This document shows, one piece after another, positions 8,910 through 41,396 of a stretch of 64,000 bases of DNA; position 1 is the first letter of the stretch; the number at the start of each line of letters is the position of its first letter. The stretch is from Lepiota brunneoincarnata (Eukaryota > Basidiomycota > Agaricomycetes > Agaricales > Agaricaceae). The translations under genes and the position numbers were made by a program. The notes beneath the pieces are model-generated. The model ran no database searches. It was not told where the DNA came from and saw only the letters and a list, made by a program, of their open reading frames with translations. The stretch lies in NCBI GenBank assembly GCA_023014365.1, contig JAEBUN010000018.1:558001-622000 (forward strand), given 5' to 3'.

Positions 8910-10194
8910 TGAAAAGGTAAAAACGTTCGTATGTTTTAATATGGATAGTGGGCTTGTTTTCACTAAGCTTAGCCGAAATTCGATAAGCTTAAGCTAATAC
9001 AAGTGGAATGAGATAGATAAGGAACAGTTTCGTCTTTTAGGGTGTTCTGGGGGTGCGTTCTGACAGCGAAATTCAAGAGAGTACTGTTTTAGAGGTTAAC
9101 GAACAGCCGTTGAAGTTATCTTAGCCGTACGGTGCAACAATGAAAGGACAATCCCTGTCAATTCAAAGCGCGGGGTCTCTAGTCTCTGGTCTCTGGTCTC
9201 TGTCTCTGTCTCTGTCTCTAGCACTCTGGAACTCTAAACTCTGAACTCTGGTCTCTGTCTCTGTCTCTGGGTTGGTCGACGACCGAAGAATTCACACTTA
9301 ACGACGCACACTAAATAGCCCTCTGAAACCGTTCTTGATCACGGCTCGCAGACTTGCGTGTGGAAGCGGGGGTGAGACCTCTTGCTTCTCCACGAACAAG
9401 TGCGACCGTATTTATATTGTTTAGATACATACGAGAGATAGTAAATATGAAATAGAAAACAATAAGCTTAATTGTTACAGGCACTGTAGAACATTTTGGA
9501 AGGTTCGGCAGCATTTCTACCTTGCCCTGGGTTATGGGTTTTTCTCTGATTAACGAATGGCAATCCAGCCAGACGTGTTTCGTGCTCGTCTGCATTATTC
9601 TGCGTCCACGCGAGCGCGTTAAGACTCCGGATCAATTATGATCGGAATGTATAGTGGATGGACAGTCCCTTGATCCGTTGTAATTAATCTCAGTTAAGCA
9701 ATAGGCCGAGGTGCCGGGACCCACAAAGCACTTGTTAATTAGGAGTCTTTGATATTTCTAGGGTTTTGGGCATCAGGTGTCGCCTCCCGAACGTTGAACG
9801 TTCCGTTCCATGGTCCGGTCATCATTATTGGGCTCGCTTTCGACGTAATACTCCTGCGACAGCCGCTAGGTACATTCTTTATATTCAAACGCATCCGGGT
9901 TCATCAGAAAACTGCTCGTAAGGTCCCTTGATGCGACCGGAGTATACTCGATAGACTATGTAGAGTCCTGAATCCCTCTGGAAAGCGTTCCGATAGTTTG
10001 GTTCACTAAGCTTAGTGATAATGAACTGGTTTGAACACTTCCAAGGCTCGAATATCCTCAATTCGGTCGAACTGGCTACTACGGGACATAGTACCAATCC
10101 TCTATAGAGTTCTTTAATGATATAGCCAATGATTCTATGTAGAGAATCGTTCCAGAGTACGGAATTCATGTATAGGCGTGAAATCGGCGTATCA
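8910..10194 (-). repeat. 3' LTR of the large element
   Basis: 1285 bp, TG to CA on both strands, offset by exactly 20844 bp from the partner LTR. It contains a CT-rich microsatellite of CTCTGG/CTCTGT units (about 9175-9275) and four TAAGCTTA palindromes (8964, 8984, 9463, 10007). Four substitutions separate it from the other copy (for example in the runs at about 8.9-9.8 kb). The plus-strand ORF at the left end is chance read-through from the copia frame. Confidence 0.92.
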
Positions 10195-10208
10195 TCTCCC
10201 CCTAACCA
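10195..10208 (-). other. Polypurine tract of the large element
   Basis: Directly upstream of the 3' LTR on the minus strand is a purine-rich stretch ending AGGGGGAGA, the standard position for the plus-strand primer of an LTR retrotransposon. It confirms the minus-strand orientation deduced from gag-pol. Confidence 0.75.
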
Positions 10209-10519
10209 ATTGCTGACTGTCCTCAGTCATTATCTCCTTCAAATTCGCAGTATCTGAGTCTCTCTGACGCGCTCTATGGTCTAGAACGTTCACCAGCTTC
10301 GAGGGTAGCGCACTTTCGCTAAGCTTATTCCAAATGATGTCATGTCACCGAGTTTAAATGTATAGATCAACTGCTTGTTGCTATAGCTTAAATTTTTATC
10401 TCTTTATTGGGTCTTTTAAATGTCCCAAGGTCTCGTTTCCTCTCTTTCGTTCTCCCTCTCACTCTTTATTCGTTTTATCCTGCTCGCAGATCACTCCTTA
10501 ACGCCCACTTCTATCAACA

Positions 10520-12558
10520 ATGGACAGAAACACGCGCAGCAGCAAACGTGCCCGATACGAAGTAGACACGGACTCCTCCTCTGGTGAGTAGAGTTCGTGT
10601 TACAATCATCTTTGTTTTTCCTCACACTGTCCTCAGACTACGCTGGGCCTAGCACTGCCCCTCCGGCCTCTCAGGACGCGCCCTCTTCATCGATTGCACA
10701 ACGTAAGTCTCTTTTCTCTCGCTCTCGTTGTTTTCCTCATGCTTTCTTTGTCCTTAGGTCTCACTATTCGCCTCCCGGCGCGTCGCAACCTCCTTCCTCA
10801 ATGGGAACCACCAGCACCACGTGTTAGGAGAGCTAGAGGAGGGCGAGTGGGACGAGGAGCTTGCGGAAATCGCCAGGGAGGTGTGGATAGGACCCCTCCC
10901 CCACCGTACTCGCCGCCCCGCGAACCAACCCCTCGGCCGGCCACTCCCCTGTCCACTCCTGTGCCGCGACGCGTCATCTCGATCGCGTCACTGTGCAATC
11001 CAACTGACGAGAGTTCTGCCGGATTGTCCGCAGAACTTTCGTTAGGTATTCCTGTCGGCGGGCCCTCTGGTGGATTATCCACAGAGGCTCCGCCCAGTTC
11101 AATGTTGCTGCCTCCTCTCGCCGTCTCTCTGCGCACCCTGGACGGTGAAGGCTCGCTGGTGCTCCCTCCCCTGTGTATTGCGTCAGGTTCAGAGGTGCCG
11201 GGCCCTTCAACAAACCGCCCCTCCTCTCCTGTAGCCTCTTCGGCTACTTCTACGCGTAAGCTTAAGCCTTTTTCTGCTTATTTCTCCGCTCCTGCTAATA
11301 GTGTGCCTCATAGCTCGTATCCCTGCCGCTCTCAAAGGCAAGCAACGTGCACAGTCATCTGCGCCGCCCCTGTCGCCTCTGTTCCTGGCGAGTTCAAATT
11401 CGCCATCGCATTCTCCGGTCCCAGAGGTCTCCCAAGAAGACCTCTTCAAAATTTTTAACTGGTCCTCTACCCTGGTCGAGCGGAACGCATTGGCCTCTCC
11501 CAGGTGTCCTACGCCCTCGCTTCCTCACTTGGCTTCTGCTTCAGTCGAGTCTCTCCCAAGTCCCGCGGAGGCTTCGCCTTCTCCAGATTTGGAGCTCCTC
11601 TTGGAGCCTTCGCCTGTTCCCCAGGAGCCGGCGTTCGTTTTTCAAGACTCATTCTTAGCTTCTCCAACCCCCGTCCCCTCTCGTTTGCCAAGCCCGGTGG
11701 TCCCAGACACATCCCAGTCCTTGCCTCCCCAAGCCGGACCTTCAGGGTCGCGTCGCGCGCGCGTAACCCTACCGAAGAAAAGCTCTAACACGCGCCCAAA
11801 GAAATATACTCCCCGGGCGCGCATCCGACGTTCTGAAGCCGAAATAATCCGGGATCATGGATACCGGCACCCAGTCCCGCTCTTTTGTGAGGACTTTTCT
11901 AGGCTGCTGGCAGCTAGCCAGCTTTCGGTACGTTCTCCAAGTTTTTCTCGTGTTTCCTTATTAACTGTTTTGCCCCTTCCCTAGTACGTGCCGCCTCGGT
12001 CTCGGTGCACTACTTGCGCCGCTCGTAAATTGGAGTGCGAGCCTCTGGGCAAGGGTAAGAAGTGTCGCAGCTGCGACCTGTACAACTACCCCTGTACCTT
12101 CGCAGACCATCCGCGAGTCTCGGCTGGCGTTGCGAACGCCCTGGTCACATCCTCACTGACCAGTGAATACCGTAAGTTTCTCTGTTCACTGTTTTTCCCA
12201 TTTATTTACTTTTTATTTCCCAGATCTTGCTGCCTTCGCACGTGTTGCGTCCTCCAGCTTGGTCAGTCTGGAGGCCAATCATGTTGCCTACGAGGCATCG
12301 GCCTTCCACCACCGCCGTGTAATCTACCAGTTCGTCCAGGAGATGCAAGCTACCAGGACGGCCTTGGATGGTAACGACGTGGCGTTCGTGGAGATGGGTA
12401 TGGCCGAGTCCCTCGAAGATGTCCAGGCGTTCTTCGAGTTTGCTGACAACTTTCCGGGGGTCCCGACATACGAAGAATTTGAGGAGCTCAAATCGCTCCT
12501 CTTCCTCGCTTTCCCGATGACTCAGGATCCGGAGTCTGTCTTGGAGGACTTGAACTAG
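10520..12558 (+). CDS. Zn2Cys6-cluster protein, antisense gene in retrotransposon
   Basis: Six exons inferred by eye (10520-10583, 10637-10702, 10758-11255, 11314-11927, 11985-12171, 12224-12558) give 588 codons with all junctions in frame. Introns are 52-58 nt with GT/AG ends. The 587-residue product starts with a basic NLS-like K-R-A-R, continues Pro/Ser-rich to about residue 400, and then has Cys 422, 425, 432, 441, 444 and 451. That spacing, CX2CX6CX8CX2CX6C, fits the fungal Zn2Cys6 DNA-binding domain. An apparently helical segment of about 135 residues follows. Zn2Cys6 domains usually sit at the N-terminus, so the position is unusual. The gene lies between pol and the 3' LTR, antisense to the element transcript, which explains how its introns survive retrotransposition. 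Role unknown; a DNA-binding regulator is an inference. Intron 3 could alternatively end at 11301. Confidence 0.7.
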
Positions 12559-13127
12559 TGCCTGCTTCCCTTTCCTCTCTTGAATGTAATATATCCTCTT
12601 GTCCTGTATATAGTTACATTTCGCTTAACAATTCTTGTCTCTTGGTATCTTTCTGAGTTAAGCTTAAGGCCCTTCTGGAATATCCCAAGCTAAGCTAAGG
12701 CTTCCAGCTGCTTATACGCTCATCAGATATTTCTCTGATACTTCTGCTATGTTTATTGACATCTCAGCGCGCCACGATTCGCCATGTGTAGTGAACCGGT
12801 CATCCGTTCCAGCTTCATTTACAAGCCCGAACCCGAACCAGCCTGTACACGGGGTTTGACGCGCCATTTGCGCCACTTGGGGCCTGTCTCCCCCTAGCCA
12901 AATTGAAATCGGTGCCCTCACCGTTCCATCCGAATCCCTGTGCACACTGACAACCGCGAGACCCTGGCGACCTGTTACCCAATAAGGCAACTGTGGTTCA
13001 GCTAGTCTGTCGAAGGCTGGCTACTCAAGATTACAGGTTTCCTAGGCCTCTCAGGTCATAAGCTTAGGGTGGAGGGTGCTCTTTATCCACTCGTCATGAT
13101 TCGTCATCACTGCCGACAGCCTTTTCT
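12559..13127. other. Spacer between the two antisense genes
   Basis: It holds two TAAGCTTA palindromes (12659, 13059) and the related AAGCTAAGCTAAGG at about 12688. A minus-strand 92-codon frame here has no recognisable features. The right end leads into the promoter of the second gene. Confidence 0.5.
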
Positions 13128-13135
13128 TATAAAAG
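13128..13135 (+). promoter_or_regulatory. TATA box of the second antisense gene
   Basis: TATAAAAG lies 45 bp before the ATG at 13180, close to the normal TATA-to-start distance for a short leader. A TAAGCTTA palindrome is 69 bp further upstream (13059). Confidence 0.55.
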
Positions 13136-13179
13136 CGAGGGAGCGACGTCTCATTCTAGCAGACACTCTTCGTAAGAAA

Positions 13180-14527
13180 ATGGCTTCTTCGATCCCCAAC
13201 CTTCAAGTCGAGCTCGACGATCTCATCAGCAACACCAAAGGTCATCTTCAGCGCCTGCAAAACGGTCAAGTCGCTCGTCCCCTCATCGAGAAGGCTCTCC
13301 TCGCATTCGACGCCCCTGGGGTATGTCTATTCTTTTCATGCTTCTCTCGCTGTTCCTCAATCATTTCTAGTCTGCTTATATTGAAGCATTATCGGAGGAT
13401 AATGAAGCTATCAAGCTTCATGTCAACCAAGACTACGTCTTCCGTATTCGCAAGCTCTACGAAATTTACCAAAACAACTACCATTCGTCTTATGAGATGC
13501 CCGCGATCTATAAGGCGCTCTCTGAATGCTGTAGCCGCATTAATCGCGTCCGCTCTGAAGAATCCCACAAAACCCGTACCGAAGAGGCTCAGAACCCGTC
13601 GTCCACGACTGGCTCTACTTCCTCCAACGTTGCCGAAGGCTCTGCTGTCCCCAAACGCGTAAGCTTAGCGTTCTTTTGGCTTCAAATCGTCTTCTCATGC
13701 ATAAGCTTAGCCTCGCAAGGGTCGCAAGGCCCCTATCTCTGCTGCTGTTGTGGTAGACACCGATACCGAGCCTGCGGAGAGTATGAATAGTGCCTCCAAC
13801 TCCCGAGCAACTGGTGCTGACACGGTAATCTAGCTGCTTCTCAACCTATTACATTGGCTGAGATCATCGCTCGCCTTCAGGACATGATGGTCGACGAGGA
13901 GGTCTCTCAAGCTATCGTCGAAGAGGTTCGTGTAGTTCCGCCTTATCGCAAGCGTCGTTTGTCTACCTCCGACATGGTGCGCCAGCTCCACTCCCCCCAA
14001 CCACTGATTCTGACTTCCTCTCTCTCTAGGAGACTGTCAAAAAGTCCTCATCGTCTAAAGGCTCTGTCCGTCTTCTTCCCTATTGTCAAGTTCCCAATAT
14101 GAACACTAAACACTGCTGTTATGTCCGGGCTGAACAGGTTCTAGCCAAAGCCAGCGCCAATACTGCCAAATGCGCCCGTACCGAGTCTGCTTCTGATGAG
14201 CGCACCTTCGCAGGCTTATCCGGTGGGCAATTTCTCACTTCTGTTCGTTAAGCTTAGCGGTTCTGACACTTTTCCCGGGCAGCTCGTTTGCTCCAGGAAC
14301 TCCAAAACCTCCTGTCTCACTCTCGCGACGAGTACGAGTCTGAATCTTGCAGTGACGACGCTCGGTCTGTCAAATGCGACCTCAATTCGCTCAGCCGGGA
14401 CTTCATCGAGGCTATTCCCTCGCTCGAAGCTAACTTAAAGAGGTTCCAATTCCTCATTCAAGAGCGCATCCGTCTCAAAAGTCTTTTGCGCAACCTCTCC
14501 GACTTGGACAAGCCCCTCCCCACTTAA
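13180..14527 (+). CDS. Unknown spliced gene antisense to pol in retrotransposon
   Basis: Six exons (13180-13320, 13371-13658, 13711-13780, 13834-13976, 14030-14222, 14283-14527) join to exactly 360 codons. Introns are 50-60 nt, three with a visible CTGAC-type branch site. The 359-residue product has no domain I recognise. It looks largely helical, with a basic NLS-like P-P-Y-R-K-R-R and a leucine-rich C-terminus. Intron 2 begins GTAAGCTTAG and ends ATAAGCTTAG, so TAAGCTTA palindromes form both splice borders; another lies in intron 5 and a fourth spans the TAA stop. The gene converges on the integrase ORF, with 77 bp between the two stops. I cannot assign a function. Confidence 0.65.
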
Positions 14528-14604
14528 GCTTAACGCTTTTACAGTCCCTAGGATAGTTTTCCGTCGATAAGTAGATAGTTCTGTCCACAATATCAGGTTT
14601 TTTT

Positions 14605-16403
14605 CTATCCTTCCAACTCTTCCAGCTCCCATCTGTCACTAGGCTCATCCTCAGTAGTCTCCTCCAGGGTCTTCAGTCCCTCTGGCGACAGATCTATCAA
14701 CTCTTGTAATTCCGGCGGCAACGGTATATGTTTCCTGGCTAAGTAGGGAATTACTCTGAACGCCGCCACTTTATTCTGCCATACCGAACCGTCCAACTCT
14801 GCCAGGATATAAGATCCTCCCTTTGATCTAGATATGACCACCATGGGTCCTAGATACCTGGGTTTCATCTTCCTGTCTGCTGAGCTCTCTATAGCCGTAT
14901 TTCTCACTAATACTAAATCTCCCGCGCCGAAGCGATAGTCTTTTATCTTATGCGCTGCTTGCCGTTCCATTTCCCAAGCCTTGCTAAGCTTAGTGTCTGA
15001 AACACGCTGACGCATCTCCTCAACATGCCGAACATGTTTTGCCAAAGCCTGAGCTCGATATCCTATCAACTCGGCCGTGGTCAAGTACTTATTCGGTAGC
15101 TGCACCGGCCAAGTGGCCTCTTTGACATCCAAAGGTAGCGTCGGGTGCGCTCCGGTTACCAAAAAGTACAGGGAACACCCCATTCCTTTTCTAATGGTGA
15201 TCCGATCTGCCCACATAACGTGCGGTAGGTGCCAATACCACTTTTTGACGTCTCCATCTGTAGCTTTGTACAACATTTGTCGCACATCCCAGTGGGGTCG
15301 CTCAATAATCCCGTTCGCTTTGGAATTGTAAGGAGATATCGTTACTCCCTTTATCCCATATTTTTCTTCCAGCCATCGAACAGCTTTCTTAAATGGAGAA
15401 CCATTGTCCGTGACAATCTTCACTATACAGCCCCATCGGCAAATGATATCTTCGAATAACCACTGCGCGATCGAACTGGCGTTCTCTTTTCTCAACGCCT
15501 TTGCCTCCATCCAAGATGACAGTCCACACCTTCCATGCACAATATAACTACACCCATTAGAACTTGGCGTCATATGTAGTGTGTCCACATGTAGCACTTG
15601 GAATATCGACGGCATGGGCGTTACTATTGGCGGCGTCTCGATGATCACCTTTTGCCGTTGCTGGCATAGATGGCACGATTGCACATACCAAGCTACGTCT
15701 CCTTCAACTTCCGGCCACCAGAACCTCTGCGTTATAAGCTTAGTGGTTGCGTATATTCCTCTGTGCCCTAGGAAGTCGTGGCTGGCTCGCAACATATACA
15801 TACATTGCTCCTTATCCACTACTAGCTGATGCTGACCGCTAGGACTCGTCCTATACAGCCTCCCCTCTTTATCCAAGAAGAAATGCTCTACCATATGCTT
15901 AAGCTTACGCAGATCTGGCTCATCCAAGCCTTCAGCTGCGCTACTGCCCCCTGTTTTCAGGTATTCCCTGACTTTGGGTATCCTTTCATCTTGTATTCGC
16001 GCTGTATCTGTCCTGCGCGACTCATCATATGTTTCCTCTATCTCGGCCGACTTTTCCTCTTCGAAATCTGGCACTAGCCTGACATCCGTCATTAAGCTTA
16101 GTACTTGTCGATGGTTTTCTGGACAGGCTGGGTCTTCTATAACCCTAAGCTTAGCCTGTTGTTCATCCAAGTACTCTTCCCGGGCTTGATCCAGCTCATA
16201 CTCAAAATCATACACATCACGCGCCAGACCCTGGTTGAAGCCAGAGCGACTGTCGATCTCATCGCAGAAGGCTTCCAAGGGTAAAGGATCTGCAGCCCCT
16301 GGATCTTCTTTGATCAGTTCGAACTCCTCTCCTTCATCCTCGGATCCATCGTCGAAGCGACGGGCTGTCTCATCACCGGGATAGTAGCGTCGCCTGGACA
16401 GTC
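14605..16403 (-). CDS. Integrase of the large element (second part of pol)
   Basis: The block contains an HX4H...CX2C zinc finger (H-D-F-L-G-H, then C-H-L-C-Q-Q-R), a DDE core with Asp in V-L-H-V-D-T-L, Asp in V-T-D-N-G-S-P-F and Glu in N-G-I-I-E-R, and a GPM/GPY-like module near the end. All catalytic residues are present. The N-terminal codons directly continue the RNase H of 24651-24858: the chromovirus insertion splits the G-P-D-G-L / S-R-R motif, and joining the two sides across one CAGTC copy keeps the frame. No chromodomain follows. The ORF track start at 16434 lies in the inserted LTR and is not the real start. Confidence 0.88.
16399..16403. repeat. Target-site duplication CAGTC, left copy
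   Basis: CAGTC directly precedes the 5' LTR at 16404 and is repeated at 24646-24650 directly after the 3' LTR. A 5-bp duplication is standard for Ty3 integrases. Confidence 0.95.
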
Positions 16404-16407
16404 TGTT

Positions 16408-16776
16408 ATGAACAGTCCAGACCGGGAGGAACAAGAATTACTGTTCGACTTTACAAGATGGGTACAGGAGACTACAGACCAACTACGGGCACAAGAATAC
16501 GAAGACGAGGAAGGGGAATACTACACCGCCATGCAGGACCTGGCAAGAGAAGCAGGAATGGAGATAACCTTGGAGGATATATTGGAATACCCCGAGGACG
16601 AAGAAGATAACCATGGATCAACCGATCCAACCTCCGATACGGATGGAAGCACTGAGAGAATGGAGAGCGAGAACGGAGAGGACTCCATGGAGATACAATT
16701 GGGAGAAGGAGATTATGAGTCAGAGGAAAGCGATGGAACATCGCACAGCAGTAGCGAGAGTACTGACTCATTGTAA
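16408..16776 (+). CDS. LTR-encoded acidic ORF (5' LTR copy)
   Basis: A 122-codon frame starts at the fifth base of the LTR. The product is about one-third Asp/Glu, with a Ser/Thr-rich tail, and no domain is recognised. In the 3' LTR the identical frame is the C-terminal 122 codons of post-pol ORF b, so here it is probably a promoter-less duplicate. Conservation between LTR families is described for the copy at 6539-6907. Confidence 0.45.
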
Positions 16777-16885
16777 TATAAATAACACTAGGATGCCATC
16801 AGCCAGGATGTGCATCATGGTCAGGACTGCGGACGACCAGTAGAACAGCCAAGTAACCTATAACGAGTATATAGCACCTCATAGG

Positions 16886-16893
16886 TATATAAG
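16886..16893 (+). promoter_or_regulatory. LTR TATA box
   Basis: TATATAAG, 28-35 bp upstream of 16921, where the 12-nt sequence complementary to the primer site begins. The same box is present at the matching places in the other LTR copies. Confidence 0.65.
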
Positions 16894-17103
16894 GCCTGTA
16901 CAAGTAGAGATTAAAGCCCTAAGCTTTAATCTTGTTAACAGCGGTCGTTTACCTCTCTGCCTTAACTTGGCGTCTTCCCTCGTTATCTCATTGAGCGCGA
17001 TCCACTAAGCTCTATAAGGCCAACCGTCTCGGACACCTTGTAGAGTGATTGAAGGCCGTCTCCAGTTATCTTCGGATACAGAAGGAGCACGGATCATAAC
17101 ATT

Positions 17104-17115
17104 AGATTAAAGCTT
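17104..17115 (+). other. Self-priming primer-binding site (Tf1-like)
   Basis: Two bases after the 5' LTR lies AGATTAAAGCTT. It is the perfect 12/12 reverse complement of AAGCTTTAATCT at 16921-16932, the position where transcription should start given the TATA box. No TGG-type tRNA primer site is seen there. In Tf1 of fission yeast the first 11 bases of the mRNA fold back to prime reverse transcription (established). The same mechanism is inferred here. Confidence 0.7.
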
Positions 17116-17291
17116 CCTTTGGACAACCTCCATCGTACACCCCGTGGTATCGGTACGCCTTGTCGCTACCCTTCCACACCGGCAGACGATACGCTTTATC
17201 GCTATCCGAGTGCCAACCGTATCTGACGACACGCCTTGTCGCTGTCCGGTGATACACCCCCGTAGAGCAGGCCACCATACCCTCTGCACCC

Positions 17292-19058: not shown

Positions 19059-19153
19059 AAGATGCAACCGACGAAGAAGTCGAGGACATCTACGAACATT
19101 TTGCAAATGAATCCAACCACCCAGATGCCCCTCTGGTTAAGGATTTTGCCTAA
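18029..19153 (+). CDS. gag: Gag of the young chromovirus
   Basis: The 374-residue protein opens M-A-S-S-A-K and has the Ty3-family capsid region (T-F-N-G-E-T-D-Y-F-R-L-W-K, S-Y-M-S-T-G-P-A-A-T-W). An acidic linker and one CCHC knuckle (C-F-N-C-R-K-T-G-H-F-A-R-E-C) follow near residue 290. It forms the virus-like particle and binds element RNA. The stop (19151-19153) lies directly after the frameshift heptamer GGATTTT, so pol should be made as a gag-pol fusion. The ATG at 18029 is the first in a frame that is open further upstream; I chose it because the family usually starts just before the capsid motif. Confidence 0.88.
   Translation: MASSAKINTPPTFNGETDYFRLWKDAVQLYIDAKPGAFSDDKTKIQFALSYMSTGPAATWRGAFLESNKELDGSQTLPTWKKFLEGLDTSFAPNNVPADAMDRIRHLKQNGRYIDDYISQFQILAYQADLGDGVAAVNYFKNGLDRPVAIKTISLNPGNKLSDWFKQARTAYQILQTQRDYMQTRGTPSFPTTSRTRPFKGKRNAFTRRVPLPYQATDPNAMDIDQLAEAVYNLDFEDEPDLLAEEADEDEETEEDRLHQLVQERTREALNAILTDAQRKDLKEKRCFNCRKTGHFARECPTKKTIYRRSELPRNLDARNRSNAISRRRQASYRKKNSLYNILEDATDEEVEDIYEHFANESNHPDAPLVKDFA
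19141..19147 (+). promoter_or_regulatory. -1 frameshift site GGATTTT between gag and pol
   Basis: In the gag frame the heptamer reads G GAT TTT, the X XXY YYZ form for simultaneous tRNA slippage. The pol frame has a stop at 19138-19140 and gag stops at 19151-19153, so only 13 bases overlap. The heptamer fills that window. A -1 slip continues with TGC at 19147 in the pol frame. Confidence 0.7.
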
Positions 19154-22809: not shown

Positions 22810-23905
22810 CCAACCTAACCCTGCCACCGATACCGCTGACAACCAACCAGACAGGACCAACAGTCCTTATATCATCCGGCATACCTTCCTTCCCTCCAAC
22901 CAACCCGAGATACGATCCATCCTTCTACACGAAGTTCCCTTTCATATTACCGGAACCCGTCTTAAACGCAGTCCAGCGATGGTACCCCTGGTCGACACCT
23001 GCTGGAAGACATTTACTGCTCTTCTGTATCACAAGCGCCTCGTCCACGACCGAACAACAGAATTCGAAGAACTATGCGCCACTATTCTTTCTAGCGCAAC
23101 AGAGGAACAGGACCGCAACACCATTTCTGCCATGCTATCAACCGCTCTCACCGAATTCCCGTTCGAGAGTCCGATCCCAAGCCCGAGCAATGGAAGCGGA
23201 AGTCAGGACCGCCCTATCCTACCTATCGGGACCACCACCCAACCTTCCAACCCTCCCATGGTGGATACGAGTAACCAACCATCAAGTGTTGTACAAGCTA
23301 TATCTGCTTCTAATGACGCCCCCGTCGGGACTACCACCACTCATTTATCCACCACCCGAACTCGCTGCAATTGCTGCCGTCGATTCGGCCATATCAAAGC
23401 AGGATGCCCGCGCTACCAATGTCGATATTGTCGAAAGATTGCCCCAGGCCATTACGAGAAGCACTGCGAGAGAAACCCTTACCAGCATCAACCCGCAAGT
23501 ATGGTACCTGGCCTGTATCGCCGCCCACGAGGAATACCAAACAGAGCTCGATCCCTCACACGCGAAACCACAAACAACAATATTCGACACATTGTTGCAA
23601 GCACCGAGCAGCGCCCCGCTTCAGCCAGACCCCTCCGCACCCGAATTCAAAATGCCCCCGTCGTCATTCCGACCACCAACGCCACCACCACATCTGCTAG
23701 TGGAAGCCACCGACTTCCTGAATCGATCCTTCGGCACACCCGCCACCATTCACTCCAGAGAACCCATCGTCATCGACCTCACCCAAGACCCGCCATCCCC
23801 AGACCACCAAGTTACCGAAGCGACTCCCCAGAACCCGACCCATACTTCGACTGGGACCCCATCGCCGAATCAAACATTACAGGAGAGCCTGTCGGACTAT
23901 ACTGA
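22691..23905 (+). CDS. Post-pol ORF a, zinc-knuckle protein
   Basis: 404 codons with an ATG start inside the end of pol. The middle carries two knuckles, C-N-C-C-R-R-F-G-H-I-K-A-G-C (CX2CX4HX4C) and C-R-Y-C-R-K-I-A-P-G-H-Y-E-K-H-C (CX2CX6HX4C). The C-terminus ends near E-S-N-I-T-G-E-P. The older gypsy relic at the left has the same two knuckle types and a matching E-S-N-I-T-G-E-P end, so this is a shared family gene rather than chance. Probable nucleic-acid-binding accessory protein. Most of it overlaps ORF b in another frame. How it is translated downstream of gag-pol is not visible. Confidence 0.7.
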   Translation: MTQPPNTRATTPDLPEPDNDGRLLIRERILSLANRVEGNSQPNPATDTADNQPDRTNSPYIIRHTFLPSNQPEIRSILLHEVPFHITGTRLKRSPAMVPLVDTCWKTFTALLYHKRLVHDRTTEFEELCATILSSATEEQDRNTISAMLSTALTEFPFESPIPSPSNGSGSQDRPILPIGTTTQPSNPPMVDTSNQPSSVVQAISASNDAPVGTTTTHLSTTRTRCNCCRRFGHIKAGCPRYQCRYCRKIAPGHYEKHCERNPYQHQPASMVPGLYRRPRGIPNRARSLTRETTNNNIRHIVASTEQRPASARPLRTRIQNAPVVIPTTNATTTSASGSHRLPESILRHTRHHSLQRTHRHRPHPRPAIPRPPSYRSDSPEPDPYFDWDPIAESNITGEPVGLY

Positions 23906-24320
23906 GGATATGTCTGATGAGGACATCAGACCTTACGAAGGGGATAATGTTATGAACAGTCCAGACCGGGAGGAACAAGAATTACTGTTCGACTTTACAA
24001 GATGGGTACAGGAGACTACAGACCAACTACGGGCACAAGAATACGAAGACGAGGAAGGGGAATACTACACCGCCATGCAGGACCTGGCAAGAGAAGCAGG
24101 AATGGAGATAACCTTGGAGGATATATTGGAATACCCCGAGGACGAAGAAGATAACCATGGATCAACCGATCCAACCTCCGATACGGATGGAAGCACTGAG
24201 AGAATGGAGAGCGAGAACGGAGAGGACTCCATGGAGATACAATCGGGAGAAGGAGATTATGAGTCAGAGGAAAGCGATGGAACATCGCACAGCAGTAGCG
24301 AGAGTACTGACTCATTGTAA
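22749..24320 (+). CDS. Post-pol ORF b, ends inside the 3' LTR
   Basis: 523 codons with an ATG, in the +1 frame relative to ORF a, overlapping it for about 1150 bp and overlapping the pol end for 61 bp. It continues into the 3' LTR, whose first 122 codons form its acidic C-terminus. No domain is recognised. Two points suggest it is real: the relic element keeps an open frame in the same +1 relation, and the LTR-encoded part shows seven synonymous against one amino-acid-changing difference between LTR copies. Composition-driven openness remains an alternative for the part outside the LTR. Confidence 0.5.
   Translation: MDAFSSGKESYPWRTASKEIANLTLPPIPLTTNQTGPTVLISSGIPSFPPTNPRYDPSFYTKFPFILPEPVLNAVQRWYPWSTPAGRHLLLFCITSASSTTEQQNSKNYAPLFFLAQQRNRTATPFLPCYQPLSPNSRSRVRSQARAMEAEVRTALSYLSGPPPNLPTLPWWIRVTNHQVLYKLYLLLMTPPSGLPPLIYPPPELAAIAAVDSAISKQDARATNVDIVERLPQAITRSTARETLTSINPQVWYLACIAAHEEYQTELDPSHAKPQTTIFDTLLQAPSSAPLQPDPSAPEFKMPPSSFRPPTPPPHLLVEATDFLNRSFGTPATIHSREPIVIDLTQDPPSPDHQVTEATPQNPTHTSTGTPSPNQTLQESLSDYTEDMSDEDIRPYEGDNVMNSPDREEQELLFDFTRWVQETTDQLRAQEYEDEEGEYYTAMQDLAREAGMEITLEDILEYPEDEEDNHGSTDPTSDTDGSTERMESENGEDSMEIQSGEGDYESEESDGTSHSSSESTDSL
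23935..23947 (+). other. Polypurine tract of the young chromovirus
   Basis: GAAGGGGATAA immediately precedes the 3' LTR, the normal place for plus-strand priming. Confidence 0.7.
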
Positions 24321-24645
24321 TATAAATAACACTAGGATGCCATCAGCCAGGATGTGCATCATGGTCAGGACTGCGGACGACCAGTAGAACAGCCAAGTAA
24401 CCTATAACGAGTATATAGCACCTCATAGGTATATAAGGCCTGTACAAGTAGAGATTAAAGCCCTAAGCTTTAATCTTGTTAACAGCGGTCGTTTACCTCT
24501 CTGCCTTAACTTGGCGTCTTCCCTCGTTATCTCATTGAGCGCGATCCACTAAGCTCTATAAGGCCAACCGTCTCGGACACCTTGTAGAGTGATTGAAGGC
24601 CGTCTCCAGTTATCTTCGGATACAGAAGGAGCACGGATCATAACA
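23948..24645 (+). repeat. 3' LTR of the young chromovirus
   Basis: 698 bp, identical to the 5' LTR except for one base seen in the acidic ORF. It is followed by CAGTC (24646-24650), the right copy of the target duplication. Confidence 0.95.
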
Positions 24646-24650
24646 CAGTC

Positions 24651-26600
24651 CGTCCGGTCCAAAGTTCTTCCCTTCTTTGTGTACTAGCGTGAAGTGGAAC
24701 GACCTAATGAAGTCCACCCAGCGGTTTACTGTGGCATTCGGGAGCTTCCCTGGGTTGTTTAACATCCCGAAGAGAAACTTCGCATCTCGTCCCACCACTA
24801 AGTTTCTTGATCCCACAGTAAATATTTCTCTTGTTCCAGCACCATTCTTAAGCCGCATAGCTCTCGCTTGGGCTGAGAGTATCTCTGCTGTCTTTCATCC
24901 AATAATATTGACCCAAACTTCACATAATGTATAAGCTTAGCGTCTTCTCCATCTTTCTGATATATGTAGTATCCCACCGCCCTCCATGAGGTATCCACGG
25001 CTACTACTATGGGTTGTTTACTCGGAAATTCGGGGTTCCTGGTCGGGAAACAGCGCTGAATCGCATCTTTCAGCTCCTGCTGCACTTTCCGTTCGTTTTC
25101 TCCCCACTCAAACTCTTGCCCTTTTTTAAGCTTTTCGTACAGAGGTGCCGCTATGGCTATGAACTTTGGGATATGATTCCTGCAGCGCGTAGCTGTTCCT
25201 AGAAAACCCCTTAGCTCGGAGACATTCTCGCAATCCCCCCATCTTAATATCTTCCCAATGGTGTCTGTAGCAGGCAACCGTCCTTTATATGAGCATTCAA
25301 AACCCACCACGGTGATTTCATCAGCGCAGATAGTCGTCTTGGGCCCAGAGAAGGTCCCTCCTACGTATTTCATCCTCTGTAGAATCCTATTGACGGTCTG
25401 CATGTGTTCCCATACAAATCTTCGGATCCCTGGGTTCTCTTTCAACGTCTCTTCCGTGCCATCTGGCAACTCATATCTAGTTTTCGGCCCTCTGATAGGT
25501 ACATCATCTATGTACGGCATCGTGTATTCTGGTATCTCACTGGCTAGGATCGCTGTTACATCCTCATGGAATATAGGCACTGAGTTGGTCCATCCCATGG
25601 GTAATGTCACTAAGCGTAGCGCTCCAAAAGGCGTCTGGAACGTTGTTAAGTCCCGAGACGACTCAGCTAACAGTCGCTCGTCATAGCCAACATATAGATC
25701 CAGAATGCCTCCGCAAGCTCTGCCTGCGAAGTGCATCGCCAAATCTTCCGTTGCTGGCGGCAGTCCTGAATGCGCTATCGTCACTCTGTTCAGCGGCTCC
25801 AAGCTGTGTACCAGTCTCAAACTTTTCCCATCTTTCTTCACCACACAGAACCATCGGGATCTATAGGATGAGTTCGACGGCTCGTATACACCAGCACTAA
25901 TCTTTCTCTTTATAATGGCACAGACTTCATCATAGATCGCTGGTGGAATCGGAATGGGCTTCTCCACCCACGGAGTATGTTCTACCGTCGGTATCTCGAT
26001 CGGCGGGAAGAAGTCTTCCCTAAAACATCCCCTCTCCTCATCTGTCCATGCGAATGCCCTTTCCTGAAGCATCATGACTTGGTGCATCAGCTTTCTTTCT
26101 TCTGGCCACAAGAGATCCCCTGCATGGGCTTCATCCAGCTTAAGCTTGCGCTCCTCTGTATATCTGCCTGTCGGGACAAACTCTGGAGGATGCATGCTAA
26201 GCTTAGGCATTTCTGCCAGCGGATCCCCTTTTATTTCTCGTTTTATCCTGAATTTCTCCGGTAAATCACCTAACACTGGCCTCACTTTTAAAGCGACTGG
26301 TTTATATTTCTTCCCAGCCAGGCATTGTACAATATCTTCGTCATCCCCTTCAGTTTCGAAGACAGTCATTCCCTGACCCTCCGTATCCTGTGCGTTGGCG
26401 ATGCGCCCTAGGCACGATAACGCCGTTGCTCTATCTTCCTGTGGGCAGTCCTCATCGCGTATGACTCGGTCAATGAACATTAGCTGTAGCTCGGCCTCTG
26501 AGAAGCTTCCTTTTGCTAAGCTTAGTGTTTGTGCGACGACAGGGCCCTTCTCATCATCATAGTCTATTATACAAGCCACCTCTCCTTGTCCCTCAGTCAA
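24651..26600 (-). pseudogene. RT and RNase H of the large element, one frameshift
   Basis: On the minus strand the 600-codon block 26600-24798 holds RT (K-K-D-G-K-S-L-R-L-V, D-L-Y-V-G-Y-D-E, catalytic P-Y-I-D-D-V-P-I) and RNase H (V-A-V-D-T-S-W-R). It then stops. The frame is picked up in the -1 phase by 24858-24651, which continues R-N-L-V-V-G-R-D-A-K-F to G-P-D-G-L at the chromovirus insertion. One missing G in a GGGG run near 24810 would explain the break. The Y-I-D-D box and the following R-G-P-K-T differ clearly from the chromoviruses here. The block begins in the -1 frame relative to pro. Confidence 0.85.
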
Positions 26601-27730
26601 CTCATCAAGGTTTCTTGAAAATTTTGACTGTTTTCCCTAAGCTTAGGAGGATTACACTCTCCTCGAGCATAAGTTGGTAACACAGCCCGTTCTCTGGTAT
26701 TTGGGTCCGTAATAACCAAGGTTTGCTCGCCACTGGCACTATTCCTGACTTCGCTAGCCGTCATTACATCAAAGGGTCGTCCCAAGAGTACTCGATACGC
26801 GGGGTTACGAACGATGTGAACTTGCAAATAGATTGTGACTCCCCCGCAGGTAAAGCCTACGTTCTTTGCCAGTCCACAAGTCTTTTCAACCTGCCCATTC
26901 GCACTCTGCAAATTTATCGTAGTATCTGGATCCCAAGAAACTTGACATGCAATCGCCGCTTCCTGACTCATGGAGACGATCTGTGACCCGCTATCTAGCA
27001 AGGCCTCTTCCTGCCGAATCCCATTTATCAGAGTTGGCACTACTCTCAATGGCTCGCATTCTTTCGCAATAAACACTTGCCGTCCCCTGTCTCTTCGAGG
27101 AAGTGACTCCAAGTACTGCATGATTGGATCCTGCGCTACCCAGGCTTGGGTTGCCGAGCCTTCTCGGAGCACTGTATCATACTTCCAAGTGCCGTCTGCT
27201 AGCTCCGTTATCATGACTTGTACTGGCCCACTATTAATCTCTATATCTTCTGTATCATCGTCCCAGGGCCCTACTCCTGCTATTAAGCTTTGACTCGTGG
27301 GTACCCGTTTTCTCATAATGCGCTCCCTATAAGCGTTCCTGTATATCGGTGACAATGCCAAGAGTTCTCCATGCGATACTGAGGCTTCTCGCTTCAATAC
27401 CCTGCTGAGTACTTCCTCCACATCGACACTCCTCTCTATAGGGGCCTGGTGCTTATACGCAGGCTCCTTCTTAGATGGTTCCATCCTTCTGACAGGCAAC
27501 GGTGGCACCTCAACGACCGGGCGCAGTGGTTTCACATTTCTATATGGTAATTCCCCTGCTGCGGCACGCACTGGTTCCTCCGTTGTCTGCCCTATTTCCT
27601 CATTTTCTGATTCTTCTGATCGCTCGGAATCCGACGCGTCCTCAGGAGTCTGTCCTCTGGCGAAGGCGACCTTCTTCTTCAGAGCCGGCTCCTTCCTCGA
27701 ACCCTTTAGAAACCCGACTCCGAGTTCCAA
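26597..27730 (-). CDS. Protease region of the large element, middle frame
   Basis: This is a 377-codon frame with a long charged N-terminal spacer and the retropepsin signature A-L-L-D-S-G-S-Q-I-V-S, followed by L-L-G-R-P-F-D-V. There is no ATG at the upstream end. It overlaps the end of gag in the -1 frame, so it is most likely expressed as gag-pro. It overlaps the RT frame at its 3' end, again -1. The arrangement resembles retroviruses with separate pro and pol frames. Confidence 0.8.
   Translation of the reverse strand: MELGVGFLKGSRKEPALKKKVAFARGQTPEDASDSERSEESENEEIGQTTEEPVRAAAGELPYRNVKPLRPVVEVPPLPVRRMEPSKKEPAYKHQAPIERSVDVEEVLSRVLKREASVSHGELLALSPIYRNAYRERIMRKRVPTSQSLIAGVGPWDDDTEDIEINSGPVQVMITELADGTWKYDTVLREGSATQAWVAQDPIMQYLESLPRRDRGRQVFIAKECEPLRVVPTLINGIRQEEALLDSGSQIVSMSQEAAIACQVSWDPDTTINLQSANGQVEKTCGLAKNVGFTCGGVTIYLQVHIVRNPAYRVLLGRPFDVMTASEVRNSASGEQTLVITDPNTRERAVLPTYARGECNPPKLRENSQNFQETLMS
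26618..26624 (-). promoter_or_regulatory. -1 frameshift site AAATTTT between pro and pol
   Basis: In the pro frame the bases read A AAT TTT, 18 nt before the TGA stop (26597-26599). The RT frame is open across this region in the -1 phase, so a slip here would produce gag-pro-pol. Confidence 0.55.
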
Positions 27731-29187
27731 GTCTTCGCGCCACTCCTGGTGTCCAAATACTGGCTTGCCGAGGGCGTACCATCCGTCAGACCACTAAGCT
27801 TAGCCTGTATCTGGGCCAATTGCTCGGCCAAAGACTGTATCTCGACGTTATCATCCTTTCTTGTCATAAGCTTAACCTTTGGGGTACTCCCAGCGTGGAT
27901 GGCAGCTGTCTCCAACATTTCCATGCGCTGCTTCAGACGGCGGATTTCTTCTTCCGCTGGCGACCTTTGGTTTTCTGACCTCGGGAACGCTCTCTGTGCA
28001 AACACTGCTGACGTTGGTACTTGCGGTAACTCAGGCTCAACCTCCGGCAGTTCTGGTATCTGAACGAAGAGTTGTCCCTTTGTCGCATAGTACTTTGCCA
28101 CTTTCTCTTTAATAGGCCCTTCTCCTCGAGGGATACTCGAGCCGTCTCCCATATATATTTTGTTCCCTTCGACTCTAATTCGGCTGGCTTGTTTATCCGC
28201 CTCCATGTCCGGGCAGAATAACCAACTATGCCCTAATAACCAGCAGTAGAAACACTTGCAATCGGAAAGCGACCCTGCCGGCCCACTTCCGGTATTCCTC
28301 TGGGCGTGATTATAACCGGCATGATTATGTCCGTCTTTCGCCGAGCTCTCTAAATATGTTTTTAAGGTATGCCCCTGGATATTCATGAGGTCCTTAAGCT
28401 CAGCGAGGCCACCTGCCATCTGCGAGACTTCATCCTGAAATTTCTGCTTTAAGCTTTGCAGTTCTCGCTTTACCACCGGGTCATAAGTCCCTGTTCCGGA
28501 CGTCGCAGGTGGATGGCTCATCGATGCCGAGTTTACCGGCCTCAAATCCTGATGAAGGGATTGCATAAGTGTTTTGCCAATCGAAATTTCGACAGCTTTA
28601 TCCACGACAATCCTCCAATCATAGGGGTCCTCTTCGCGTAAATCCTTCGCAGTCAGTGCCGACCCATCACTTGCGGTTCTACGCGCCCCGGTGATCGCTA
28701 ATCTCGCATTGAGCACATCCTGGAACACCAAGTCCAGTGCGCTTGTAAATAACTTGACTAGCTCTCGGTTCGAGACTACCGCCGGCGACTTTAGACACTT
28801 CTCTGCTTCGAGAATGAATCGCCTTTTAAAGTCCAAGACTTTATGCTCCTCATTCATCGCAATGCCTCTACTCTCTGCGCAGAGTTCCCTCAAGCGTCGC
28901 ACTGAGCCCTGCTCGGCTGCCACAGCCTCGGGATACTCTTTCTTTAATCTCTCTACGAAGCCTGTCCAGCTTCCTGCTAAGAACTCCACAAAACTCATCC
29001 ACTCTTCACGGATATCCTGGTCCACATATGACACTGCCCAATTTATTCTTTCTGCCTCGTCCGTCGTCTTCGTTATCGTGAAGAGACGTTCCAGCGTCCA
29101 GAGATAATTTCTCAATGTCTGTGGTTTTGATGCATCCCACCTGGGAGCATTATTGCTAAAGGGAATTGGCATACGCTCGTGTCCCAT
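27706..29187 (-). CDS. gag: Gag of the large element
   Basis: A capsid-like region (R-N-Y-L-W-T-L-E-R-L-F, Y-V-D-Q-D-I-R-E-E-W, F-V-E-R-L-K-K-E-Y-P) and a CX2CX4HX4C knuckle (C-F-Y-C-W-L-L-G-H-S-W-L-F-C, about 28200-28260) are followed by a coiled-coil-like tail. I start at the first in-frame ATG (29187, M-G-H-E-R-M). The frame is open without ATG back towards the primer site, so the true start may be upstream or the original ATG lost. The stop lies directly after the heptamer GGGTTTC. Confidence 0.8.
   Translation of the reverse strand: MGHERMPIPFSNNAPRWDASKPQTLRNYLWTLERLFTITKTTDEAERINWAVSYVDQDIREEWMSFVEFLAGSWTGFVERLKKEYPEAVAAEQGSVRRLRELCAESRGIAMNEEHKVLDFKRRFILEAEKCLKSPAVVSNRELVKLFTSALDLVFQDVLNARLAITGARRTASDGSALTAKDLREEDPYDWRIVVDKAVEISIGKTLMQSLHQDLRPVNSASMSHPPATSGTGTYDPVVKRELQSLKQKFQDEVSQMAGGLAELKDLMNIQGHTLKTYLESSAKDGHNHAGYNHAQRNTGSGPAGSLSDCKCFYCWLLGHSWLFCPDMEADKQASRIRVEGNKIYMGDGSSIPRGEGPIKEKVAKYYATKGQLFVQIPELPEVEPELPQVPTSAVFAQRAFPRSENQRSPAEEEIRRLKQRMEMLETAAIHAGSTPKVKLMTRKDDNVEIQSLAEQLAQIQAKLSGLTDGTPSASQYLDTRSGAKTWNSESGF
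27709..27715 (-). promoter_or_regulatory. -1 frameshift site GGGTTTC between gag and pro
   Basis: In the gag frame it reads G GGT TTC followed at once by TAA. Slippage by -1 continues CTA AAG in the pro frame. The heptamer has the canonical X XXY YYZ form. Confidence 0.7.
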
Positions 29188-29734
29188 TTTTCTAGCTGTA
29201 GTCGTCGTCGACGGCGTAGTTTGGTTTGTCTGTACAGTCGGAGTTGACTGTGATATCTGTGGTACCGTGGGGGCACCAAAAGGGTTCGTATGAAACGAGT
29301 TTTGGTTTGGTAACGCTAAGCTTAGCGTAGGAACGGTCTGACCGTCCTGGTTTTCGGTGTGCAGAATATGCGCTATGTTGCAAGCTGAGGCTGGCAGCCT
29401 TATAGTAATTCTGGGAGCAGTAGAGATCGGCGGTACGGCTTCTCTCAAAGCTGCAACTGCTGAACCACTTGCTGTGTTCGCAGCTAAAGCGCTAACGGGA
29501 TCTTTTCGCTTTCGAGAGGTACTAGCGGCGATGAGGCCTTCAGAACCTTCTGGACGATTGGAGTTCCAAGTAGTTCTCTGTTTTGGTGGGTCGACCTTCC
29601 TGAGACTGCTCTCGAAGGACGTTTTGGGTGACTTTACGGTCTTTGCTTGAACCTTTTTCTGCTTCGCAGGTGAAAGGCGGGCCAGTGTCCAAGTCTTTTG
29701 GTGTTTTGTCTCGTGAAATTCAACTGAAAACCCC

Positions 29735-29751
29735 CCTCGCGGTGGGCTCCA
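29735..29751 (-). other. Candidate tRNA primer-binding site of the large element
   Basis: Two bases after the 5' LTR the minus strand reads TGGAGCCCACCGCGAGG. It begins TGG, complementary to the CCA end of a tRNA, as expected for tRNA-primed elements. The tRNA cannot be named by eye. Confidence 0.55.
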
Positions 29752-29753
29752 GA

Positions 29754-31038
29754 TGAAAAGGTAAAAACGTTCGTATGTTTTAATATGGATAGTGGGCTTG
29801 TTTTCACTAAGCTTAGCCGAAATTCGATAAGCTTAAGCTAATACAAGTGGAATGAGATAGATAAGGAACAGTTTCGTCTTTTAGGGTGTTCTGGGGGTGC
29901 GTTCTGACAGCGAAATTCAAGAGAGTAGTGTTTTAGAGGTTAACGAACAGCCGTTGAAGTTATCTTAGCCGTACGGTGCAACAATGAAAGGACAATCCCT
30001 GTCAATTCAAAGCGCAGGGTCTCTAGTCTCTGGTCTCTGGTCTCTGTCTCTGTCTCTGTCTCTAGCACTCTGGAACTCTAAACTCTGAACTCTGGTCTCT
30101 GTCTCTGTCTCTGGGTTGGTCGACGACCGAAGAATTCACACTTAACGACGCACACTAAATAGCCCTCTGAAACCGTTCTTGATCACGGCTCGCAGACTTG
30201 CGTGTGGAAGCGGGGGTGAGACCTCTTGCTTCTCCACGAACAAGTGCGACCGTATTTATATTGTTTAGATACATACGAGAGATAGTAAATATGAAATAGA
30301 AAACAATAAGCTTAATTGTTACAGGCACTGTAGAACATTTTGGAAGGTTCGGCAGCATTTCTACCTTGCCCTGGGTTATGGGTTTTTCTCTGATTAACGA
30401 ATGGCAATCCAGCCAGACGTGTTTCGTGCTCGTCTGCATTATTCTGCGTCCACGCGAGCGCGTTAAGACTCCGGATCAATTATGATCGGAATGTATAGTG
30501 GATGGACAGTCCCTTGATCCGTTGTAATTAATCTCAGTTAAGCAATAGGCCGAGGTGCCGGGACCCACAAAGCACTTGTTAATTAGGAGTCTTTGATATT
30601 TCTAGGGTTTTGGGCATCGGGTGTCGCCTCCCGAACGTTGAACGTTCCGTTCCGTGGTCCGGTCATCATTATTGGGCTCGCTTTCGACGTAATACTCCTG
30701 CGACAGCCGCTAGGTACATTCTTTATATTCAAACGCATCCGGGTTCATCAGAAAACTGCTCGTAAGGTCCCTTGATGCGACCGGAGTATACTCGATAGAC
30801 TATGTAGAGTCCTGAATCCCTCTGGAAAGCGTTCCGATAGTTTGGTTCACTAAGCTTAGTGATAATGAACTGGTTTGAACACTTCCAAGGCTCGAATATC
30901 CTCAATTCGGTCGAACTGGCTACTACGGGACATAGTACCAATCCTCTATAGAGTTCTTTAATGATATAGCCAATGATTCTATGTAGAGAATCGTTCCAGA
31001 GTACGGAATTCATGTATAGGCGTGAAATCGGCGTATCA
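29754..31038 (-). repeat. 5' LTR of the large element
   Basis: 1285 bp, partner of 8910-10194. It carries palindromes at 29808, 29828, 30307 and 30851. Beyond its right end the copia sequence resumes at once (31039). Confidence 0.92.
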
Positions 31039-41296: not shown

Positions 41297-41303
41297 TATA
41301 AAA
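41297..41303 (+). promoter_or_regulatory. TATA box, RSG gene copy 1
   Basis: TATAAAA about 95 bp before the ATG, within about 250 bp of promoter conserved in all three copies (TATA also at 51742 and 58440). A CCAAT word lies about 50 bp upstream in copies 1 and 3. Confidence 0.6.
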
Positions 41304-41396
41304 CGTACCCTCCAAGCACCAGGAAAGAACCCAGAAACCTCTAAAGTTTCTTCTCTCATCGTACCAAAGCTTCTAAAGCCAAACTTAGCATTCATC

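Follow-up and report, generated by a model that had tools for sequence, protein, structure and literature searches.

A palindromic word conserved along a Ty3/Gypsy-type retrotransposon of Lepiota brunneoincarnata and a candidate reader encoded antisense to gag-pol

A window of 64,000 nucleotides from Lepiota brunneoincarnata (contig JAEBUN010000018.1, positions 558,001 to 622,000; coordinates below are those of the window) contains a long terminal repeat (LTR) retrotransposon that carries an eight-base palindrome, TAAGCTTA, in 28 exact copies. This palindrome, hereafter the word, is conserved as nucleic acid and spread over the full length of the element. The element, likely a minus-strand retrotransposon of the Ty3/Gypsy type and of a mushroom-fungus lineage, lies in two parts (8910-16403 and 24651-31038; 13,882 bp in total) on either side of a nested insertion. 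In addition to gag-pol it holds two predicted genes, A and B, on the opposite strand.

Occurrence and distribution of the word

All 28 sites fall inside the element and none in the remaining 50,118 bp of the window. The recount is identical to that of a sequence-only reading of this DNA, which had reported 28 element-confined sites and none in the other 50 kb. In 100 shuffles of the window the word appeared 0.62 times on average and four times at most. An order-2 Markov model expects about 0.25 occurrences in the element, and TAAGCTTA is the element's top 8-mer by z-score enrichment. Chance and base composition are rejected as the origin of the excess by all three comparisons. The 24 one-mismatch variants of TAAGCTTA sum to 10 occurrences in the element, and the word is therefore sharp. 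It is extended to CTAAGCTTAG at 11 of the 28 sites, which puts a figure on the 'many' extended sites of the sequence-only reading. In five control regions, among them the nested element, no palindrome was in comparable excess.

The genome-wide count proposed along with that reading gave 5370 occurrences of TAAGCTTA in 55.6 Mb, compared with 842 for ATTCGAAT, 419 for TTAGCTAA (a palindrome of the same composition) and 675 for AATCGATT. The extended form CTAAGCTTAG occurs 2011 times, and its reversal 39 times. This abundance fits a family of 72 or more reverse transcriptase (RT) copies (protein search; 72 of 1350 candidates scored) and with 133 genome matches to the zinc-cluster exon of gene A, the sites being only partly assigned to the family.

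The 28 sites represent 24 distinct positions and four LTR duplicates. Each LTR holds four; one lies upstream of gene A, one in gene A, two between genes A and B and four in gene B. Within gag-pol, integrase has five, RT and gag three each, and the end of the protease frame one. Thirteen sites lie in the frames of gag, protease, RT or integrase, including one in the LTR (29808), and the coding sites of gag and pol read KL or LSL, in two frames. The sites are listed below with their state in other copies of the element: in copy L031 for the part around gene A, and elsewhere in those copies of the 20-copy set described in the next section that cover the site.

8964-8971: LTR; exact match
8984-8991: LTR; exact match
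9463-9470: LTR; exact match; intact in L031
10007-10014: LTR (TCACTAAGCTTAGTGA); exact match; intact in L031
10320-10327: non-coding, upstream of gene A; intact in L031
11257-11264: predicted coding part of gene A (RKLK); intact in L031, flanks changed
12659-12666: non-coding, after gene A; lost in L031
13059-13066: non-coding, upstream of gene B; intact in L031
13660-13667: gene B, 5' splice border of a predicted intron (GTAAGC); intact in 15/15
13702-13709: gene B, 3' splice border of that predicted intron (CTTAG); intact in 15/15
14249-14256: gene B region; intact in 16/16
14525-14532: contains the predicted gene B stop (TAA); intact in 15/15
14985-14992: integrase (TKLS); intact in 16/16
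15735-15742: integrase (TKLI); intact in 18/18
15900-15907: integrase (RKLK); intact in 18/18
16093-16100: integrase (LSL); intact in 18/18
16146-16153: integrase (AKLR); intact in 18/18
24932-24939: RNase H part (AKLI); intact in 0.90 of 20
26198-26205: RT frame (PKLS); lost in 14/20 copies, all 14 with a site at 26141
26517-26524: RT frame (LSL); intact in 0.90 of 20
26638-26645: end of protease frame (PKLR); intact in 0.95 of 20
27795-27802: gag (AKLS); intact in 0.95 of 20
27867-27874: gag (VKLM); intact in 19/19
29317-29324: gag (LSL); intact in 19/19
29808-29815: LTR copy; intact in 17/17
29828-29835: LTR copy; intact in 0.94 of 17
30307-30314: LTR copy; intact in 15/15
30851-30858: LTR copy; intact in 14/14

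The predicted 52-nt intron of gene B (13659-13710) starts with GTAAGCTTAG and ends with ATAAGCTTAG, the word supplying both splice borders. A longer repeat or tandem unit as the source of the sites was rejected, the flanks of distinct sites being unrelated. Regular spacing was not found: the coefficient of variation of the distances (0.81) is within the random range, and 20% of random placements are equally even.

Conservation of the sites among element copies

We compared 20 of the at least 72 RT matches, taken as stretches of 10 kb, chosen across 87-99% identity and aligned piecewise. The copies share ancestry and their cells are not independent; the argument therefore rests on other positions of the same alignment. 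For the 20 sites covered in at least eight copies the mean intact fraction is 0.947, compared with 0.677 for all 8-mers, and none of 20,000 random draws was as high. Six copies at 94.5-94.7% overall identity keep 18-19 of the 19-20 sites that they cover, where 12.3-13.7 are expected. Most sites are thus kept at about 5% divergence, and not lost from other copies, the outcome that the sequence-only reading had named as contrary to its claim.

The contrast is sharper in the 16 diverged copies, from which the four at about 99% identity and site 26198 were left out. Here 8 of 2108 site positions have changed (0.4%), compared with 7.3% in the flanks (651 of 8927 positions, a gap being scored as a change). 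Trinucleotide rates predict 115.7 changes at the site positions and pentanucleotide rates 113.8. Among context-matched 8-mers (903 and 220), 0 of 50,000 draws in each case reached the value of the 19 sites. Site codons in the 20 copies show one synonymous change in 503 cells, whereas the same codons elsewhere predict 49; non-synonymous changes number 16 against 16 expected and stem mostly from the loss of site 26198 in 14 copies. The gene A half of the element was read in one diverged copy (L031) and part of another (L024). In L031, whose gene A half is 82% identical, five of six sites are intact, including the one in gene A with changed flanks.

The word persists in LTRs, between genes, in predicted introns and at synonymous positions. 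Since site bases and synonymous positions have barely changed, the word is constrained as nucleic acid and not as protein. Protein constraint is rejected by the synonymous counts and also by the fact that the residues are not kept in relatives (see below). The main confounder is low mutability. CpG transitions in the copies run at 16.7%, compared with 4.2% at other C/G, and CpG-related changes make up 3863 of 9318, while TAAGCTTA holds no CpG. This explanation is rejected too, as the context controls expect about 114 changes where 8 are seen. The central claim of the sequence-only reading was that the sites are explained neither by protein constraint nor by a simple repeat. The comparison of copies, the test at synonymous sites and the controls matched for context all support it.

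Site turnover and the age of the word

One pair of neighboring sites shows turnover. Site 26198 is intact in 6 of the 20 copies, and a site at 26141, 57 bp away, is present in 16; L019 and L024 carry both, and every copy has at least one of the two. A single site shifted by 57 bp was rejected on account of L019 and L024. The two were probably lost reciprocally between subfamilies, with something like local redundancy. Besides the one at 26141, the 20 stretches hold extra sites at only three places, which lie in unaligned parts of L022 and L023. No insertion targeting to the word was seen in these stretches, each with about 300 bp of outer flank.

We also asked, for the RT and integrase sites, in how many of 120 listed related proteins the residues at the corresponding place would allow the word to be encoded. 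The seven testable sites gave 15/110, 20/119, 0/45, 1/36, 0/41, 0/32 and 1/34 relatives; one further site had no aligned relative. At five of the seven, then, at most one relative (of 32-45 per site) is able to encode the word. The five closest RT relatives (68-73% identical in RT) read PKQ, PKI, PRK, PKE and PKR where the word-bearing family reads AKL. From this we infer that the word is recent to its family and that the proteins were bent to carry it. This has to be set against control KL tripeptides outside the window's sites, which are kept in 0/119 (the 26141 place), 49/119 and 0/118 relatives. As these controls are equally poorly kept, the in-place test shows the absence of an old protein constraint, and not selection for the word. 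Relatives in viral contigs gave 32 pattern matches, none of which was confirmed.

Structure of the word-bearing element

The assignment of the element rests on its LTRs, priming sites and pol domains:

8910-10194, minus strand: 3' LTR with four sites; 99.7% identical to 29754-31038
29754-31038, minus strand: 5' LTR with four sites; 99.7% identical to 8910-10194
27706-29832, minus strand: gag-like open frame, stop to stop, extending into the LTR; zinc knuckle CX2CX4HX4C read from the sequence
26597-27793, minus strand: aspartic protease frame; Pfam PF13975, E=2.7e-8
24798-26636, minus strand: RT/RNase H frame, adjoining the nested element; Pfam PF17919 and PF17917 above cut-off, PF00078 below
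14605-16437, minus strand: integrase frame; Pfam PF17921, E=4.4e-16
16404-24650, plus strand: younger Ty3/Gypsy element nested in the word-bearing one, with no sites and outside the system; LTRs 16404-17101 and 23948-24645, 99.9% identical

The LTRs are 1285 bp each, differ at four positions, none within a site, and have TG..CA ends (TGAAAAGG...GTATCA). By eye, a primer site TGGAGCCC (TGG start) lies 2 nt inside of the 5' LTR and a polypurine tract GGGGGAGA adjoins the 3' LTR. This copy has no target-site duplication (8905-8909 TCCAC, 31039-31043 CCGCT); its ends may have recombined. The domain order found with Pfam (protease, RT, RNase H, integrase) is that expected for Ty3/Gypsy. Pfam gave no gag domain for the 27706-29832 frame and no rve integrase core in the element. 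The RVT_1 score (PF00078) is below the cut-off, and the lineage is therefore divergent. The three named RT relatives come from Armillaria ostoyae, Meripilus lineatus and Moniliophthora perniciosa, all of them basidiomycetes, and so point to a basidiomycete host.

The nested element is flanked by CAGTC on both sides. Elsewhere in the window, 37804-62348 is a duplicated array with pieces about 75-88% identical and arginine-serine-rich open frames at 41256-41795 and 51747-52232. An open frame at 46530-47300 resembles a Tc1/mariner-type transposase, judging its translation by eye.

Antisense genes A and B

Genes A and B sit between integrase and the 3' LTR, on the strand opposite to gag-pol:

10520-12558, plus strand: gene A, antisense to gag-pol, with predicted introns, Zn2Cys6-like; exon borders predicted
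11985-12170, plus strand: gene A exon with a six-cysteine cluster, predicted DNA-binding domain; Zn_clus 18.9 bits, zf-ChsH2 22.6 bits
13180-14527, plus strand: gene B, antisense, with predicted introns and no known domain; exon 13371-13658 retained in copies; a family-2 homologue with 36% identity (see below)

The cysteines of the open exon 11985-12170 follow the pattern C-X2-C-X6-C-X8-C-X2-C-X6-C (CTTCAARKLECEPLGKGKKCRSCDLYNYPC). Zn2Cys6 clusters have the pattern CX2CX6CX5-12CX2CX6-8C, and the exon fits it. In the diverged copies L024 and L031 this exon is 87-90% identical at the amino acid level. It is the best-kept part of gene A in L031 (90%, compared with 84% and 71% elsewhere) and not in L024 (87%, compared with 90% and 82% for other parts). 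A homologue search with 222 residues of gene A gave none at E<=0.001; it weighed proteins of 0.55-1.75x the query length and may have missed full-length relatives. The structure prediction for a gene B exon is of low confidence (61). Of the Zn2Cys6 protein that the sequence-only reading had placed at 10520-12558, the gene itself is plausible, given the cysteine spacing and its retention in L024 and L031, while the class assignment stays below the Zn_clus cut-off.

Two of the 133 gene A exon matches, on contigs C35 and C60, belong to a stand-alone gene with three conserved parts at 60-66% identity and an intron placed as in the gene A of the element. The loci are L032:1918-3472 (C35:356617-358171) and L033:2069-2837 (C60), and their conserved exons are open. 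Around them (5.0 kb on C35 and 3.5 kb on C60) there is no significant match to RT, integrase, gag or gene B, and no TAAGCTTA. The coding parts of the two loci differ by about five synonymous changes and one non-synonymous change, that is, a ratio of non-synonymous to synonymous rates (dN/dS) of about 0.06 from few events. The surrounding DNA matches in pieces at 90-100%; the loci may be alleles or a recent duplication. The stand-alone homologue scores 16.8 bits with Zn_clus, under the 21-bit cut-off, and its 62-residue exon had no homologue in a protein search of 0.55-1.75x the query length. Judging from these sequences, gene A was taken up by the element from the host, or an element gene was domesticated by the host; the stand-alone gene would be the source in the first case and a domesticated copy in the second. 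Antisense orientation would let a captured host gene keep its introns through retrotransposition.

Sister families and a possible second word

A genome search with more distant RTs led to a sister family. This family 2 (L025, L027, L028, L030 and L034) has about 65% DNA identity in RT to the word-bearing family. A third family is represented by L026. TAAGCTTA is nearly absent from both; in family 2 it occurs once in each of three stretches of 8-10 kb.

Family 2 has what may be a word of its own, TAGKTAAC, found 11 times in L025 and spread over the element (0.67 expected; above all 12 simulations). Three more occur in L028 and two in 5 kb of L034 (0.25 expected), which as a 98% copy contributes little independent evidence. 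L030 keeps 9 of 9 aligned sites; the base rate is 74% and the family-2 copies are near-identical, so the power is low. Neither the window element nor the family-1 copies L005, L010, L017 and L022 contain TAGKTAAC; L024 has it twice (5 of the 20 copies counted). It is rare genome-wide, with 1722 occurrences on both strands versus 4781 for the reversed control. In family 3 no word exceeds chance, its best score of 6.5 equalling the simulations.

Gene B has a family-2 counterpart with 36% amino acid identity in the aligned exon (genome search, E=6.1e-8). Seven homologues of the family-2 type of gene B, 30-34% identical, were seen in the genome. Family 2 probably has a much diverged gene A as well. 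A sister family with a diverged gene A and a word of its own would suggest that word and reader change together.

What may read the word

Codons, introns, LTRs and spacers all carry sites, which is most simply explained by a factor that binds the word sequence-specifically and acts along the entire element. From sequence and by analogy, we tentatively propose, at somewhat less than even confidence, that TAAGCTTA is bound by the predicted gene A protein of the element, whose role would be to label copies of the element as kin and to sustain their expression in the face of host silencing. Because the word is a palindrome, the protein would bind it as a dimer on double-stranded DNA. Many such molecules along 14 kb would act on the whole element and not on one promoter, which would favor anti-silencing or kin marking over ordinary promoter activation. 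Silencing pressure itself is suggested by the raised rate of CpG transitions in the copies (16.7%, against 4.2% at other C/G). Some diverged copies are strongly CpG-depleted, which points to CpG methylation: the observed/expected CpG ratio is 0.41 in L022 and 0.26 in L030, compared with 0.92-0.94 in L005 and L007 and 0.95 in L024, which is diverged nonetheless. A broader version of the proposal is more doubtful. It would have a retrotransposon family with a private identity word throughout, codons included, and a captured antisense zinc-cluster reader; sister families would use other words, making up a self-versus-other code, and the stand-alone homologue would be the source of the reader or a counter-weapon.

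A number of observations weigh against gene A as reader and against the code. Its exon stays below both Pfam cut-offs (18.9 of 21 bits for Zn_clus; 22.6 of 23.2 for zf-ChsH2, a zinc-ribbon model that outscores Zn_clus). The only match in PDB is the zinc-cluster protein RSC30, at E=6.3, and the fold model of the exon has low confidence (pLDDT, the predicted local distance difference test score, of 54). Known Zn2Cys6 sites are mostly CGG-based, unlike TAAGCTTA. Protection of CpG near sites is not clearly seen, decay being 0.20 at 9-25 bp and 0.14-0.18 further away; the rank correlation is 0.07 (p 0.03), and non-CpG bases show much the same trend. On the side of family 2, the gene A match is weak (E=6e-6 for the C-terminal part and E=0.004 for the zinc exon, both single comparisons), was missed by tblastn at E 0.01 and, by eye, lacks one cysteine in the copy read. 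Unrelated regions of the window also hold words beyond simulation, scoring 10.7, 13.0 and 15.9 against 9.8 for TAGKTAAC; these stem from coding repeats and A runs. In L030, C runs outrank TAGKTAAC, and with family-2 copies 96-98% alike the evidence for this word amounts to about one lineage. Finally, 9 of the 11 TAGKTAAC in L025 share one orientation, and the sense-strand flanks of TAAGCTTA have a 5' pyrimidine in 22 and a 3' purine in 15 of 24 sites; both the orientation and this weak asymmetry fit recognition of RNA better.

The main rival places the word at the RNA level: the self-complementary UAAGCUUA in genomic RNA would be read by Gag, or would pair two RNAs, and serve the packaging, dimerization or copying of the element's own RNA. 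In its favor, the full-length genomic RNA contains all of the sites and Gag carries a CX2CX4HX4C knuckle. Each transmitted copy would be under selection, and the two strand asymmetries just described suit this explanation. Conserved flanking stems, however, were not found: complementary flank pairs at distances 2-6 occur at 5-9 of 24 sites, with about 6 expected by our estimate. The sites are also neither clustered nor in one place, whereas known packaging signals are mostly 5' and structured. We consider this account unlikely, though it is a serious competitor.

Rather improbable is a site for a host DNA-binding protein, an activator or insulator, exploited by an element that encodes no reader of its own. 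Drosophila gypsy uses host Su(Hw) sites in this way, and the stand-alone gene A homologue outside elements, with its low dN/dS, makes a host-side reader possible. Yet the stand-alone loci themselves are free of TAAGCTTA, the gene A of the element is conserved in the copies read, and the word is spread over the whole element and its codons, while host insulator and activator sites are usually clustered.

The word might instead be a target of host silencing or self-inactivation, kept for copy-number control through the antisense genes as a host-friendly self-limitation. These genes run against gag-pol and could limit it, and VANC-type specificity is argued to limit damage to the host (PMC5735166). 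A pure silencing target should be lost, whereas the sites are retained in the 20 copies examined. The silencing-target role offered by the sequence-only reading is for this reason less likely, and we regard self-limitation as quite improbable. A functionless artefact, with a CpG-free word that is hard to mutate where much copy divergence is CpG decay, or one spread by gene conversion, is largely refuted by the tri- and pentanucleotide controls (about 114 changes expected, 8 seen), by the unrelated flanks of distinct sites, which leave no longer unit to be copied, and by site residues that differ from those of the closest relatives.

Comparison with known systems

The closest parallel to the proposed binding by gene A is the VANC/VANDAL system of Arabidopsis. 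VANC21 binds YAGTATTAY and strips silencing along VANDAL21 (PMC5735166), and the targets of VANC6 are reported to carry other motifs than those of VANC21. The likeness lies in a short motif repeated many times along the element, in what may be different motifs in related families, and in a candidate reader that is an extra element gene with better and less conserved parts. VANDALs are plant Mutator-type DNA transposons with a proven reader and effect, whereas here we have a fungal LTR retrotransposon with a candidate reader and a putative effect. VANC motifs sit in non-coding tandem repeats; TAAGCTTA sites are single and lie also in codons under synonymous constraint, which counts against a close correspondence. 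The readers are unrelated proteins: gene A is a zinc-cluster candidate, and neither of the VANC domains DUF1985 and DUF287 was found in the three in-frame exons of genes A and B that were scanned; one further exon, 13181-13324, was scanned in a frame shifted by one base. By analogy, then, the TAAGCTTA system would work like VANC without being a member, differing in reader homology and in the placement in tandem repeats.

With basidiomycete Ty3/Gypsy elements (Metaviridae) the element shares TG..CA LTRs, primer site, purine tract and the order protease, RT, RNase H, integrase; it differs in its two extra antisense genes with predicted introns and in the dispersed word. With fungal Zn2Cys6 factors of the Gal4 class gene A shares the six-cysteine spacing and a weak Zn_clus match. 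The Su(Hw) sites of the Drosophila gypsy insulator, the TNPA sites of En/Spm and the sites of the Ac transposase are repeated protein sites as well, but clustered in a leader or subterminal region, whereas the word is threaded through LTRs, codons and introns. In being short, exact and dispersed over coding and non-coding DNA with sharp specificity, the word resembles DNA uptake sequences and Chi, which belong to bacterial chromosomes and have other functions. No description of a comparable word in an LTR retrotransposon turned up in a literature search, subscription papers being mostly outside it.

If the proposed binding by gene A holds, sequence-specific self-recognition of the VANC type would have arisen independently in retrotransposons and in fungi, and could cover a whole element including its codons. 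The element would then offer a clean test system for sequence-specific escape of transposons from silencing, and its word and reader would form a natural pair that could be put to use in epigenetic engineering as a tool. Even with an RNA-binding reader, a palindrome kept at synonymous sites over 14 kb would be an unusual packaging code. Among the systems compared, it is VANC and VANDAL that the word, with its candidate reader, would most resemble in its manner of working.

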